Below, in pieces: positions 9,479 to 62,889 of a DNA stretch of 64,000 nt; position 1 is the stretch's first letter, and every line of letters begins with the position of its first letter. The DNA lies in contig NZ_JAFBEG010000009.1 in assembly GCF_016908635.1 (NCBI RefSeq), positions 1-64,000 on the forward strand, given 5' to 3'. Under the pieces are notes generated by a model. That model searched no databases and was not told the DNA's origin. It worked only from the letters and a program-made list of their open reading frames with translations. Both the position numbers and the translations under genes were made by a program. The DNA is from Sporohalobacter salinus (GTDB lineage: Bacteria > Bacillota > Halanaerobiia > Halobacteroidales > Acetohalobiaceae).

Positions 9479-9512
9479 GCCACCTGTAAGTTAAAAAGTT
9501 AATATTAAATTA

Positions 9513-9649
9513 TAGCTGTAGACAGTAGGTGCTGATAAAGGCTTAAATTTGCCTGCCGAGGCGGAGATAGATGGAACTATTTATTGGTTGATGATATTTT
9601 CATCTTGATTAGGTTATATAGTCTCCGATTGTCTGCGGAGGCTTTTTTT
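9513..9649 (+). promoter_or_regulatory. L10 (rplJ-rplL) leader with intrinsic attenuator
   Basis: The conserved L10-leader landmarks are recognisable: the GTAGACAG...AGGTGCT start, CCTGCCGAGGCGGAGA in the middle and a terminal hairpin. In the terminator, 9621-9627 pairs with 9636-9642 and seven Ts follow. The 5' segment CGGAGA at 9562-9567 can instead pair with TCTCCG at 9622-9627, giving an antiterminator. In this family, L10 (with L12) binding to the leader favours termination, so excess protein shuts off its own synthesis. Confidence 0.85.
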
Positions 9650-9672
9650 AGTTGTAAAAGGAGGTGGGAAGG

Positions 9673-45910: not shown

Positions 45911-45934
45911 ATCTTTCAAATAATCTATTAAACA

Positions 45935-46204
45935 TGAAGAAAGGGTCAAGAATTAATATGACTAATAGAGAGGAATTTCCAGAGGCTGAAAGGAATTCCA
46001 GTTATTATTAATTCATTTTGCCGCCCTGGAGTGGTGAGGCTGAACTGTAGTAGGTCTTGATCGTAGTAACTGCGTTAAAGTTTTAAGAGATGTTAAGGAG
46101 AGCCTTCTGCTATTAGGTGGAAGTTTTTCTTTAATAATTAGGGTGGTACCGCGAGATAACAACTCTCGTCTCTAAAGTTTACTTTAGAGGCGGGGGTTTT
46201 TTTA
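45935..46204 (+). promoter_or_regulatory. T-box riboswitch upstream of the aminotransferase
   Basis: The T-box sequence AGGGTGGTACCGCG is at 46140-46153. Stem I begins GGTCAAGA (45944-45951) and closes with TCTTGATC just after AGTAGG (46049-46054). The terminator at 46162-46204 has CTCTAAAGT/ACTTTAGAG arms and a T-run. Uncharged tRNA should stabilise the antiterminator and turn the gene on. The triplet directly before AGTAGG is TGT, a Cys codon. However, the TGGT bulge predicts a tRNA with discriminator A, which does not suit tRNA-Cys; the specificity is unresolved. Confidence 0.93.
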
Positions 46205-48241: not shown

Positions 48242-48290
48242 AATTATTTCCTCCAAATAATTGGAAATAAATTGAAGAACCAGATATAAC

Positions 48291-48306
48291 CTAGTTGTAT
48301 AACTAG
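48291..48306. promoter_or_regulatory. Palindromic operator candidate over the ilvD -35
   Basis: Perfect inverted repeat CTAGTT-GTAT-AACTAG covering the -35 hexamer of the ilvD promoter. A repressor bound here would block RNA polymerase. No regulator gene is adjacent, so the protein is unknown. Confidence 0.4.
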
Positions 48307-48323
48307 AGGTCCTGTGTTATAAT
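48295..48323 (+). promoter_or_regulatory. Promoter for ilvD
   Basis: TTGTAT at 48295-48300, a 17-base spacer ending TGt, and TATAAT at 48318-48323 (extended -10). The leader of about 110 bases holds no T-box. Confidence 0.65.
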
Positions 48324-48441
48324 TATTTAAAATTGAAAAATCATGAGTAGCTAGTAGCGTGGGATAGAGAATAGCAAAGAAGTAAAGAATCCTATGGAGA
48401 TTTTAGCTAAAAATCTTATTATTGATTAGAGGAGGAGAATT

Positions 48442-50100: not shown

Positions 50101-50125
50101 AGCTATATAAAATTTTATAAAGTTC

Positions 50126-50154
50126 TTGACAAAATATTTAAAGTGACATATACT
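50126..50154 (+). promoter_or_regulatory. Upstream promoter P1 in the ilvD-ilvB region
   Basis: TTGACA at 50126-50131 and TATACT at 50149-50154 with a 17-base spacer. Hexamers and spacing match P2 at 50310-50338 exactly, which suggests duplication of the promoter. Confidence 0.8.
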
Positions 50155-50184
50155 GTTTAATAACATAATTTTATAAGTTAAAGG

Positions 50185-50300
50185 TTATGATGGAGACTGA
50201 AATAGTTAACTTGGACTACAGAGAATCGGGGTAGCTGAGAACCGACGTCTAATTAATTATTTTTCTCACTCCTGAACTATAGACTGAAAGGAATTATTCT
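50185..50300 (+). promoter_or_regulatory. Truncated T-box-like stem I element
   Basis: The stretch has the look of a T-box stem I: GATGGAGACTG start, AGAGAATCGGG...ACCGACG hairpin and CACTCCTGAAC distal element near 50265-50276. No T-box sequence (GGTGGTACCGCG) and no terminator follow before the next promoter at 50310. It may be the remnant of a duplicated leader, or a non-switching tRNA-binding stem. Identification is by eye only. Confidence 0.5.
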
Positions 50301-50309
50301 AAAAAGCTC

Positions 50310-50338
50310 TTGACAAACTTTGAAATATTGGTTATACT
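50310..50338 (+). promoter_or_regulatory. Promoter P2 for ilvB operon
   Basis: TTGACA at 50310-50315 and TATACT at 50333-50338 with a 17-base spacer, the same pattern as P1. It directly precedes the complete T-box. Confidence 0.85.
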
Positions 50339-50404
50339 TAAAGGTAAATAATTTTATAATAGTAAGTAGATTTTAGAGTAGCCAATAAAATTTAGTAGAA
50401 TAAA

Positions 50405-50711
50405 AGTGTTGAGAGGGGCAAGTAGGTTATTTAATTCTATCGACAGCGAGCTGGGTTTGGTGAAAGCCAGCGATAGAAAGAATAATTGAAATCCTCCTGG
50501 AGCTGCAGATTGAACGGTAATTCTAAGTAGGTTGTGCCGGTTAGTAACCGTTATCTAGTACTGGGGTATGGAACATATCTGTATTTTAGATATGTAAGTA
50601 CTTACTAAGGCTATTACCGTAAGGTAGTAGTGAAATTTGGGTGGTACCGCGTGAGCTTAAACCTCTCGTCCCGATTAATGGAACACATTAGTCAGGATGA
50701 GAGGTTTTTTT
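50405..50711 (+). promoter_or_regulatory. T-box riboswitch upstream of ilvB (probably leucine)
   Basis: Stem I carries CAGCGAGCTGGG...GCCAGCG, CTCCTGGAGCTGCAGA and TGAAC. The triplet immediately before AGTAGG (50526-50531) is CTA, a leucine codon. The T-box GGGTGGTACCGCG is at 50639-50651, with a TGGT bulge that fits discriminator A of tRNA-Leu. The terminator (arms ACCTCTC/GAGAGGT with T-run) ends near 50711. Uncharged tRNA-Leu should allow readthrough into ilvB-cimA. Confidence 0.93.
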
Positions 50712-50775
50712 GATTTTTAGATAATTTAAGTAGTAGAGTAAAAGTATGAGTAGTTAGTAGTCAAGGAGTATATAA

Positions 50776-50839
50776 TTAATAAATATCAATTACCTTGGAA
50801 TAAGTATACCTTATTTTATCTATAATTGATATTTATTAA
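50776..50839 (+). repeat. 17-bp perfect inverted repeat with 30-base loop
   Basis: Arms 50776-50792 and 50823-50839 are exact reverse complements. The loop itself holds a small AATAAG/CTTATT pair. It lies between the T-box terminator and a second terminator. Possible readings are a tiny insertion element, a binding site, or part of an RNA switch. Confidence 0.8.
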
Positions 50840-50878
50840 AAAACTCTGGGGCTAACTAGTCAGTTCCAGAGTTTTTTT
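50839..50878 (+). terminator. Second intrinsic terminator, directly before ilvB
   Basis: Arms AAAAACTCTGG and CCAGAGTTTTT enclose a smaller AACT/AGTT stem, ending in seven Ts only 34 bases before the ilvB ATG. Any transcript that passes the T-box meets this hairpin, so a second control point is implied. No leader peptide is apparent upstream. Confidence 0.85.
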
Positions 50879-50911
50879 ATTGGATTTTAAAAAGAGGGGT
50901 GAGAATGTAGT

Positions 50912-52648
50912 ATGGAATTTACTGGTGCAGAAATTTTTGTCAAATCATTGTTAGAAGAAGGGATTGAAAAAATCTTTGGTCATCCAGGTGGTGCTGTCAT
51001 ACCTATTTATGATGTATTATATGAGACTGATATTGAACATGTTTTGGCTAGACATGAGCAGGGAGCAGCACATGTAGCTGATGGTTATGCCCGGAGTACT
51101 GGTAGACCTGGCGTCTGTCTTGCTACTTCTGGACCAGGAGCAACTAATTTAGTAACAGGATTGGCTACTGCTTATATGGATTCGGTTCCATTGGTAGCAT
51201 TTACTGGGCAGGTGCCAACAGGAATGCTGGGAACAGATGCTTTTCAGGAGGCAGATATAACTGGAGCTACTTTACCGATGACTAAACATAATTACTTAGT
51301 TCAGCATGTAGAAGATCTATCCAGGATAATTAAAGAGGCTTTTCATATTGCTACTACAGGAAGGCCGGGACCTGTCTTAATTGATATTCCTAAAGATGTT
51401 CAGATGGCAAAGACTACTTTTGAGTATCCAGCTAAAGTGGAGTTGCCTGGCTATGGACCTACTTACAGCGGACATAAGTTGCAGATAAAGAAGGCAGCAA
51501 AGGCGATTAAGCAGGCTGAAAAGCCGGTAATCTATGCAGGAGGTGGAGTAGTAGCTAGTGGTGCCGCAGAGGAATTACGAAAATTGGCCAGAAAGGCTGA
51601 AATTCCTGTAACTACAACTTTAATGGGACTGGGAAGTTTTTCTGAAACTGATGACTTGGCCTTAGAAATGTTAGGGATGCATGGTACTGAATATGCTAAT
51701 TATGCTGTGTCAGAAACTGACTTATTAATTGCTGTCGGAGCAAGATTTGATGATCGGGTAACTGGAGATTTAGAAACCTTTGCTAAAAGAGCTAAGATTG
51801 TTCATATAGATATTGATCCAGCAGAAGTTTCAAAACGAGTTGCAGTAGATATTCCTATAGTAGGCGATGTTAAGAATGTACTACAGGACTTAAATCAACA
51901 GGTCCAAGAGCAGAAACATAGTAAATGGCGTCAAAAGATTCAGGATTGGAAACAGAAATCAGTTATATCCAAAGATAAAACTACCAAAGTACTGACTCCG
52001 AAGTTTATAATTGAAAAAATTGATGAAATAACAGATGATAATACATTAATTACAACAGAGGTTGGACAGAATCAGATGTGGGCTGCACAATATTATAAAT
52101 ATAATAAGCCACGCAGTTTCATTTCTTCTGGTGGGCTAGGGACTATGGGTTATGGTTTTCCAGCCAGTTTGGGGGTGCAAAGTGGAAATCCGGAGGCTAC
52201 AGTTTTTTGTATAGCTGGTGATGGAAGTTTACAAATGAATTCTCAGGAATTAGCTACTGCTGTACAGCATGAATTACCGATTAATGTGGCAATACTTAAT
52301 AATAGTTATTTGGGAATGGTTAGACAGTGGCAGGAGATATTTAATGAGAAACGATATGCATCTACTTGTTTGAAACGGCGAAAAAGTTGTCCGCCTAATT
52401 GTTCTGGCCCAGACTCTGATAGGAATTGTCCTGAAATGACTCCTGATTTTGTTAAATTAGCGGAGGCATATGGTGCAGTGGGGATTAGGGTTACTAAAAC
52501 TTCGGAAGTAAAATCCGCATTAGAAAAAGCAGTTGCTAGTTCAAAACCGGTAATAATAGATTTTGTAATTGAACGAGAAGAGAATGTTTTTCCAATGGTA
52601 CCATCAGGAGGTAGCCTTGATAATATGTTAGTAGGAGGGAATGATTAA
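50912..52648 (+). CDS. ilvB: Acetolactate synthase large subunit
   Basis: Thiamine-diphosphate enzyme making 2-acetolactate or 2-aceto-2-hydroxybutyrate, the first common step of Val/Leu/Ile synthesis. The 578-residue protein has the catalytic Glu in ARHEQGA near 48 and the TPP motif GDGSLQMNSQEL near 435. After the RQWQEIFNEKRYAST segment comes an insertion of about 25 residues with Cys486, Cys493, Cys497 and Cys506, followed by TPDFVKLAEAYG. The AGAGGGGTGAG ribosome site follows the second terminator. The stop overlaps ilvN by one base. Confidence 0.96.
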   Translation: MEFTGAEIFVKSLLEEGIEKIFGHPGGAVIPIYDVLYETDIEHVLARHEQGAAHVADGYARSTGRPGVCLATSGPGATNLVTGLATAYMDSVPLVAFTGQVPTGMLGTDAFQEADITGATLPMTKHNYLVQHVEDLSRIIKEAFHIATTGRPGPVLIDIPKDVQMAKTTFEYPAKVELPGYGPTYSGHKLQIKKAAKAIKQAEKPVIYAGGGVVASGAAEELRKLARKAEIPVTTTLMGLGSFSETDDLALEMLGMHGTEYANYAVSETDLLIAVGARFDDRVTGDLETFAKRAKIVHIDIDPAEVSKRVAVDIPIVGDVKNVLQDLNQQVQEQKHSKWRQKIQDWKQKSVISKDKTTKVLTPKFIIEKIDEITDDNTLITTEVGQNQMWAAQYYKYNKPRSFISSGGLGTMGYGFPASLGVQSGNPEATVFCIAGDGSLQMNSQELATAVQHELPINVAILNNSYLGMVRQWQEIFNEKRYASTCLKRRKSCPPNCSGPDSDRNCPEMTPDFVKLAEAYGAVGIRVTKTSEVKSALEKAVASSKPVIIDFVIEREENVFPMVPSGGSLDNMLVGGND

Positions 52649-62679: not shown

Positions 62680-62714
62680 ATTATCCAATTCGAATTAAGA
62701 TATTAATAATTATA

Positions 62715-62855
62715 GCGCCCGGACTTGGTTTTGAGTCCAAGTTGACGAGGAAGAGGTTCATCGAAACAAATCGGCGGATGCCTCTAGGTAGAGTTAGCTA
62801 CCTAAATTAACTTCTTAAAACTTATAGGCAACTATAGGGACAAAAAGAAGTTAAA
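62715..62855 (+). ncRNA. glmS self-cleaving riboswitch-ribozyme
   Basis: Core features are readable: the cleavage site between A62714 and the GCGCC that begins at 62715; a P2-type stem with ACTTGG...CCAAGT (62723-62742); the catalytic core TTGACGAGGAAGAGGTTCATCGAA and TCGGCGGATGCCTCT; P3 (62787-62791 with 62798-62802); and P4 (62809-62816 with 62845-62852). Glucosamine-6-phosphate acts as cofactor for cleavage, which leads to loss of the glmS mRNA. It sits 35 bases before glmS. Confidence 0.96.
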
Positions 62856-62889
62856 CTAATAATGTAAACTTAATGGAGGTTAACTAATC

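Follow-up and report, generated by a model that had tools for sequence, protein, structure and literature searches.

A putative composite transcription-attenuation leader upstream of ilvB in Sporohalobacter salinus

The ilv-leu operon of Bacillus subtilis is controlled by a single Leu T-box, which reads tRNA-Leu, together with CodY and DNA-binding proteins (PMC12452182). More elaborate leaders have been described elsewhere: tandems of T box(Leu) and ppGpp riboswitch are predicted to act as AND gates (PMC9481103), and partially tandem T-boxes are known, although their mode of action is stated to be unknown (PMC7583486). The ilvB leader described here resembles that of the B. subtilis operon in that T-box antitermination precedes ilvB and the operon would answer to more than one branched-chain amino acid; it differs in having two tRNA readers, a Leu stem I and an Ile T-box, and a second attenuator within the leader RNA. 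Of the arrangements described so far, the T box(Leu)/ppGpp tandem comes closest: there, too, a T-box is coupled serially to another terminator-based switch ahead of genes for branched-chain amino acids. The second switch at the present locus, however, matches no Rfam family, the ppGpp riboswitch included (E<=5, chance-level matches aside). Like T-boxes described as tandem or partially tandem (PMC7583486, PMC12452182), the ilvB leader has more than one T-box domain ahead of one gene; unlike in those, stem I is the sole repeated part, the domains read Leu and Ile, respectively, and they are separated by a second promoter. Two weak riboswitch candidates, the 'ilvB motif' of Leptospira and the 'ilvD motif' of Veillonella, are likewise structured RNA candidates ahead of ilv genes; each has been reported from its own genus exclusively (PMC8632094).

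The window analysed is a stretch of 64,000 nucleotides of Sporohalobacter salinus DNA, and its genome is referred to as G000. An intergenic gap of 811 bases between the end of ilvD (50100) and the start of ilvB (50912) was read and scanned; all features described in it lie on the plus strand. The ilvB gene (50912-52648, plus strand) is the first of a downstream ilvB-ilvN-ilvC-leu gene cluster. IlvB orthologues in relatives have the same leader, and most parts of its anatomy are kept across the order Halanaerobiales. All results on the leader come from sequence comparison and folding, with a sample of 13 genomes for the order and 12 genomes for the statistics on the second switch. On this basis, the ilvB leader is probably a composite transcription-attenuation leader that places several checks in series. 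No single part of it is indispensable, because the upstream promoter is absent in one genome of the order (G003) and the second switch was not found in two others (G002 and G012).

A hexamer scan of the gap revealed two promoters of the form TTGACA-17-TATACT, P1 at 50126-50154 and P2 at 50310-50338. Each matches the consensus at 11 of 12 positions, which bears out an earlier note on this DNA that had reported twin promoters with identical hexamers and 17-nt spacers at 50126 and 50310. Their placement is conserved: P1 lies 88-95 nt upstream of the first stem I (stem I-A) in nine of ten order genomes, G003 being the exception, and P2 lies 82-99 nt downstream of the AGAGA motif of stem I-A in all ten.

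Downstream of P2 there is, as the earlier note had stated, a complete T-box leader; it occupies positions 50400-50676. The match to RF00230 covers the full length of the model (1-219) and scores 104.6 bits, above the gathering threshold of 93. The T-box sequence GGGTGGTACCGCG (equal to GGGUGGUACCGCG) was read at 50639-50651; it provides the UGGN antiterminator bulge, here UGGU. The competing terminator, a hairpin followed by a T run, was found by an inverted-repeat scan at 50659-50713 and has 22-nt arms that are 86% complementary. The specifier, which the earlier note had read as a Leu CTA triplet, has to be corrected: Rfam alignment places AUC (Ile) at 50491-50493 in the stem I of this T-box (stem I-B), and AUC is found in all nine order genomes that keep stem I-B, whereas the Leu codon, CUC, sits in stem I-A. 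An Ile specifier fits the regulated pathway; in this genome it is followed by C and not by the usual purine. On transcripts from P2, uncharged tRNA-Ile would stabilise the T-box antiterminator and allow the polymerase to pass the first terminator, the decision falling at 50713.

Stem I-A, at 50178-50290, is an orphan T-box stem I, supported by its RF00230 match and its conservation, that ends where stem III starts. RF00230 aligned to 50178-50334 with 38 bits (E=2.7e-7), and only the stem I portion is well matched. The Rfam alignment assigns to it a CUC (Leu) specifier at 50265-50267, followed by the usual A; this specifier occurs in all order genomes that have stem I-A (10 of the 13). By its stem I and specifier, the element is a genuine T-box stem I. 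An antiterminator and terminator of its own are absent, the score stays below the gathering threshold of 93, and P2 follows within stem III; apart from the T-box, Rfam gave only chance-level matches for stem I-A at E<=5. The helices of stem I-A have been maintained through compensatory changes: they contain 15 double-change cells compared with 7.5 in shuffles, and none of 500 shuffles reaches 15, counts that carry the usual caveat that the genomes are related. The 'truncated T-box' that the earlier note had placed after P1 is upheld as a stem-I-like element, and it is not random debris: its Leu specifier is constant, and mean pairwise identity between genomes is 76% for stem I-A and 74% for stem I-B.

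Where stem I-A came from is suggested by relatives that have a single T-box before ilvB. Most of these have a GUA (Val) specifier, in a stem I similar to stem I-A; average identity to the relatives' Val stems I is 69% for stem I-A and about 53-54% for stem I-B. It is likely that an ancestral Val T-box switched its specifier and lost all that followed the beginning of stem III, a place now taken by P2 and the Ile T-box. The same orthology to the single Val-type stem I of other families, together with the missing antiterminator and the abrupt end inside stem III at the start of P2, would also be expected if stem I-A were a decaying remnant of the ancestral T-box without present function. We regard such decay as rather unlikely: stem I-A is conserved as well as the working stem I-B and has kept its compensatory pairs, and its specifier, having changed from the GUA of the relatives to CUC, was thereafter retained in ten of ten genomes.

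Transcripts from P1 would carry, in addition, this Leu-specific stem I without an expression platform of its own. Its likeliest use, we infer, is that tRNA-Leu bound to stem I-A can offer its CCA end to the one UGGU bulge further downstream, such that one antiterminator would serve two tRNAs. The distance of about 370 nt between stem I-A and this sole T-box bulge counts against the sharing mechanism, which is a guess. In one genome of the order (G002), stem I-B is deleted and P2 runs directly into stem III; on P1 transcripts of this genome, stem I-A would consequently be the sole reader for the antiterminator.

RNA that extends past the T-box would meet a second bistable attenuator. Its terminator (50838-50878) was identified by a terminator scan, inverted repeats and folding, and is the only one listed by a simple terminator scan of the gap; the intrinsic terminator that the earlier note had proposed just before ilvB was thereby recovered (50838-50877), as was the preceding 17-bp inverted repeat after the T-box terminator. 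This repeat (50776-50839) is perfect, its arms being 50776-50792 and 50823-50839, and forms the helix inside the antiterminator domain; its sequence is species-specific. The 5' strand of the second antiterminator, GAGTAGTTAGTAGTCAAGGAGT (50748-50769), makes 16 pairs to the 5' arm and loop of the terminator in the fold of the truncated RNA; the terminator loop CTAACTA (50852-50858) and 5' arm ACTCT (50843-50847) thus double as the antiterminator 3' strand. The region 50710-50885 folds better than 200 of 200 shuffles (z=-4.1). For RNA that stops short of the terminator's 3' arm, the fold of lowest predicted energy contains the antiterminator in 11 of the 12 genomes, the exception being the class relative G016; in the full-length RNA, the terminator is favoured in all 12, by 1 to 12 kcal/mol. 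According to these folds, the layout is that of a co-transcriptional switch. The GAGUAGUUAGnAG strand would be made first and act as an antiterminator by base-pairing to the last terminator, at its 5' arm and loop; the terminator would form only once this pairing is broken, and the antiterminator 50748-50769/50843-50858 would have to persist for the polymerase to pass 50878.

The comparison of the leader in related Halanaerobiales, for which the earlier note had called, showed the second terminator with its antiterminator strand in 10 of the 13 order genomes (G000, G001 and G003-G010), and the switch is also found in two relatives from the class, G016 and G028, which have no T-box at this place. 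The terminator hairpin shows compensatory change between genomes. The upstream GAGUAGUUAG strand, which begins with GAGTAG, is complementary to the terminator loop and 5' arm, and both co-vary between species: the pairing of each strand with its own terminator has a mean of -15.8 kcal/mol, compared with -12.3 (sd 0.75) kcal/mol for species-swapped partners, and none of 20,000 permutations was as good. In most genomes, the duplex formed by the upstream strand ranks first or close to first among those within 260 nt. Over the 12 genomes, the best duplex is better than in dinucleotide-shuffled upstream DNA (Fisher p=4e-7), with seven of the 12 significant on their own and five not, these p-values overstating independence as the genomes are few and related. 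Since GAGTAG-like sequence is common in the intergenic DNA of the clade, the GAGTAG strand means little by itself, and what carries the argument is that it co-varies with the terminator. The two pairings are mutually exclusive, conserved and co-varying, as in terminator/antiterminator systems. A covariance model of the second switch, built from seven leaders with G003 and G028 held out, was searched against 398 genomes of the phylum; at E<=0.02 it found only five sites, all directly upstream of ilvB and including the two held-out leaders. Further copies in the window and the class were not accepted: the weak R1 matches (E 0.005-1) included coding regions and unrelated terminators.

The second terminator could simply be a fail-safe backup for leakage through the T-box, sensing nothing; its hairpin is strong and intrinsic, and, as noted above, full-length RNA favours it in every genome. 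A simple backup, however, has no need of an antiterminator, whereas here the 5' arm and the loop of the terminator have a co-varying partner strand upstream, and the switch is present in two relatives that have no T-box to back up. A plain backup is therefore unlikely, and from the comparison of leaders the second terminator looks conditional. The earlier note's proposal that readthrough has to beat a second terminator under another signal gains support from the co-varying antiterminator and its distribution, the conditionality being a comparative inference.

Several candidates for what the switch might sense were weighed. Rfam searches of 50690-50930 gave no match to the ppGpp (ykkC subtype) riboswitch at E<=5, and on the second switch only chance-level matches to other families. 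The GAG/UAG-rich antiterminator strand overlapping a terminator is reminiscent of the Bacillus-type trp leader (PMC3913778, PMC4027176) regulated by TRAP (MtrB), the Trp-sensing attenuation protein, which might bind the (G/U)AG-rich strand and force termination. TRAP is encoded in every order genome (PF02081 E=1.4e-37 in G000) and in 47 of 59 genomes of the class, the antiterminator strands consist of GAG/UAG triplets, and the trpE leaders of the clade are similar in layout and have a conserved motif in common with the ilvB leader. In contrast to the trp leader, the ilvB leader of this genome contains no regular array of spaced triplets. Counting chains of regular (G/U)AG triplets with 2-8 nt gaps, for which a TRAP site would have about 9-11 triplets with short spacers, the longest chain in the ilvB leader of G000 has 3 triplets, within the window background of 1-5, as compared with 8-11 in the trpE leaders of the clade; the triplets here mostly abut, in this genome they are no more frequent than in dinucleotide shuffles, and chains of 6-9 occur in the ilvB leaders of G003, G007 and G008 only. 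A role of TRAP as regulator of the second switch is thus not supported by the sequences and appears highly improbable.

Control of the switch by a leader peptide with Leu/Ile codons, on which a ribosome would stall, was rejected and is very improbable. Short possible frames with such codons exist at the right place in G028 (MLIFLCNR) and G001 (MLIIRGSIPYITYN), but only there: none is conserved, the window has no start codon at the corresponding place and, by inspection, the conserved motif described below varies at first and not at third codon positions.

This motif, TTGGAATAAGTATACCTTATTT at 50795-50816 (consensus TAGGGATAAGTATAYCTAATTT; RNA form UAGGGAUAAGUAUAYCUAAUUU), lies within the second switch and is conserved in several genera; it was followed by pattern, weight-matrix and model searches. 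An order-wide pattern search allowing up to three mismatches yielded about twenty matches versus four for the reversed pattern, and all eight matches with at most two mismatches fall in leaders of regulated genes (ilvB, trpE, cobalamin-riboswitch leaders, a glp gene and infC). The weight-matrix scan placed the motif ahead of the terminators of further trpE leaders, and a class-wide model search lengthened the list with decreasing certainty, chance matches included. A hairpin can be drawn for the motif; double compensatory change was not found, and it is accordingly called a sequence motif and not a proven hairpin. One possible sensor would be an element centred on UAGGGAUAAGUAUACCUAAUUU, between the two strands of the antiterminator, that acts as a new metabolite aptamer or binds a protein: the motif is kept in the ilvB leaders of several genera inside a helix that varies in sequence yet still pairs. 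This remains doubtful, as the same motif precedes terminators in the trpE, cobalamin-riboswitch, glp and infC leaders and thus lacks specificity for a branched-chain signal, double compensatory change is absent from its hairpin, and the motif is missing in G028 and G016. Its occurrence in unrelated leaders suggests that it is probably a generic attenuator element of the clade rather than a sensor of branched-chain amino acids; it may serve generally as a pause site or bind a factor.

Across the order, in leaders of the ilvB, trpE, cobalamin-riboswitch, glp and infC kinds, the motif either immediately precedes an intrinsic terminator or lies within its loop (L227, L231, L235, L236, L239, L240, L245, L247-L249, L253, L254, L264, L265). 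Variants occur in two further terminator-bearing leaders, L297, before an ABC-F-like ATPase gene, and L298. The trpE leaders adjoining mtrB (L265 in G005, L253 in G008, and L247, L248, L249, L254 and L264) combine the motif with long regular (G/U)AG arrays, that is, TRAP sites; the G005 trpE leader has the motif twice in tandem. Two other readings of the motif, as a palindrome in the DNA or as a promoter on the reverse strand, were considered by eye and dropped, as was a likeness of one motif variant to helix 69 of 23S rRNA.

Other regulatory elements were seen elsewhere in the window. Upstream of ilvD, the palindrome CTAGTTGTATAACTAG (48270-48325) overlaps the -35 region of the likely promoter (TATAAT at about 48318-48323) and looks like a repressor operator. 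GAGTAGCTAGTAG is also found before ilvD (48345-48441), as one of only two exact GAGTAGYTAGNAG matches in this genome; as a copy of the second switch it was discarded (E=0.87 in the window, no clear terminator). A further T-box of 81.5 bits, below gathering, precedes an aminotransferase gene (45928-46176), and its specifier looks like GCC (Ala) by inspection. An ordinary glmS ribozyme (62703-62863) and an ordinary ribosomal protein L10 leader (9498-9659) score above the Rfam gathering thresholds.

With all parts of the ilvB leader acting, expression would require a shortage of amino acids read by tRNA and, in addition, a second permissive condition, an AND-type logic. A tentative reading of the whole is a T-box for two amino acids, in which the Leu stem I shares the antiterminator of the Ile T-box, followed by an undescribed attenuator for a third branched-chain or a global signal, the 22-nt motif being an undescribed generic attenuator element of Halanaerobiales such as a pause or factor-binding site. 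The order offers a natural series of leaders whose only repeated part is stem I, the two copies differing in amino-acid specificity, along with a natural deletion in G002 that keeps only the orphan stem I, and the idea of a shared antiterminator is thereby directly testable. The second attenuator appears to be a conserved switch, and the motif common to unrelated leaders hints at a shared attenuation step in this clade.
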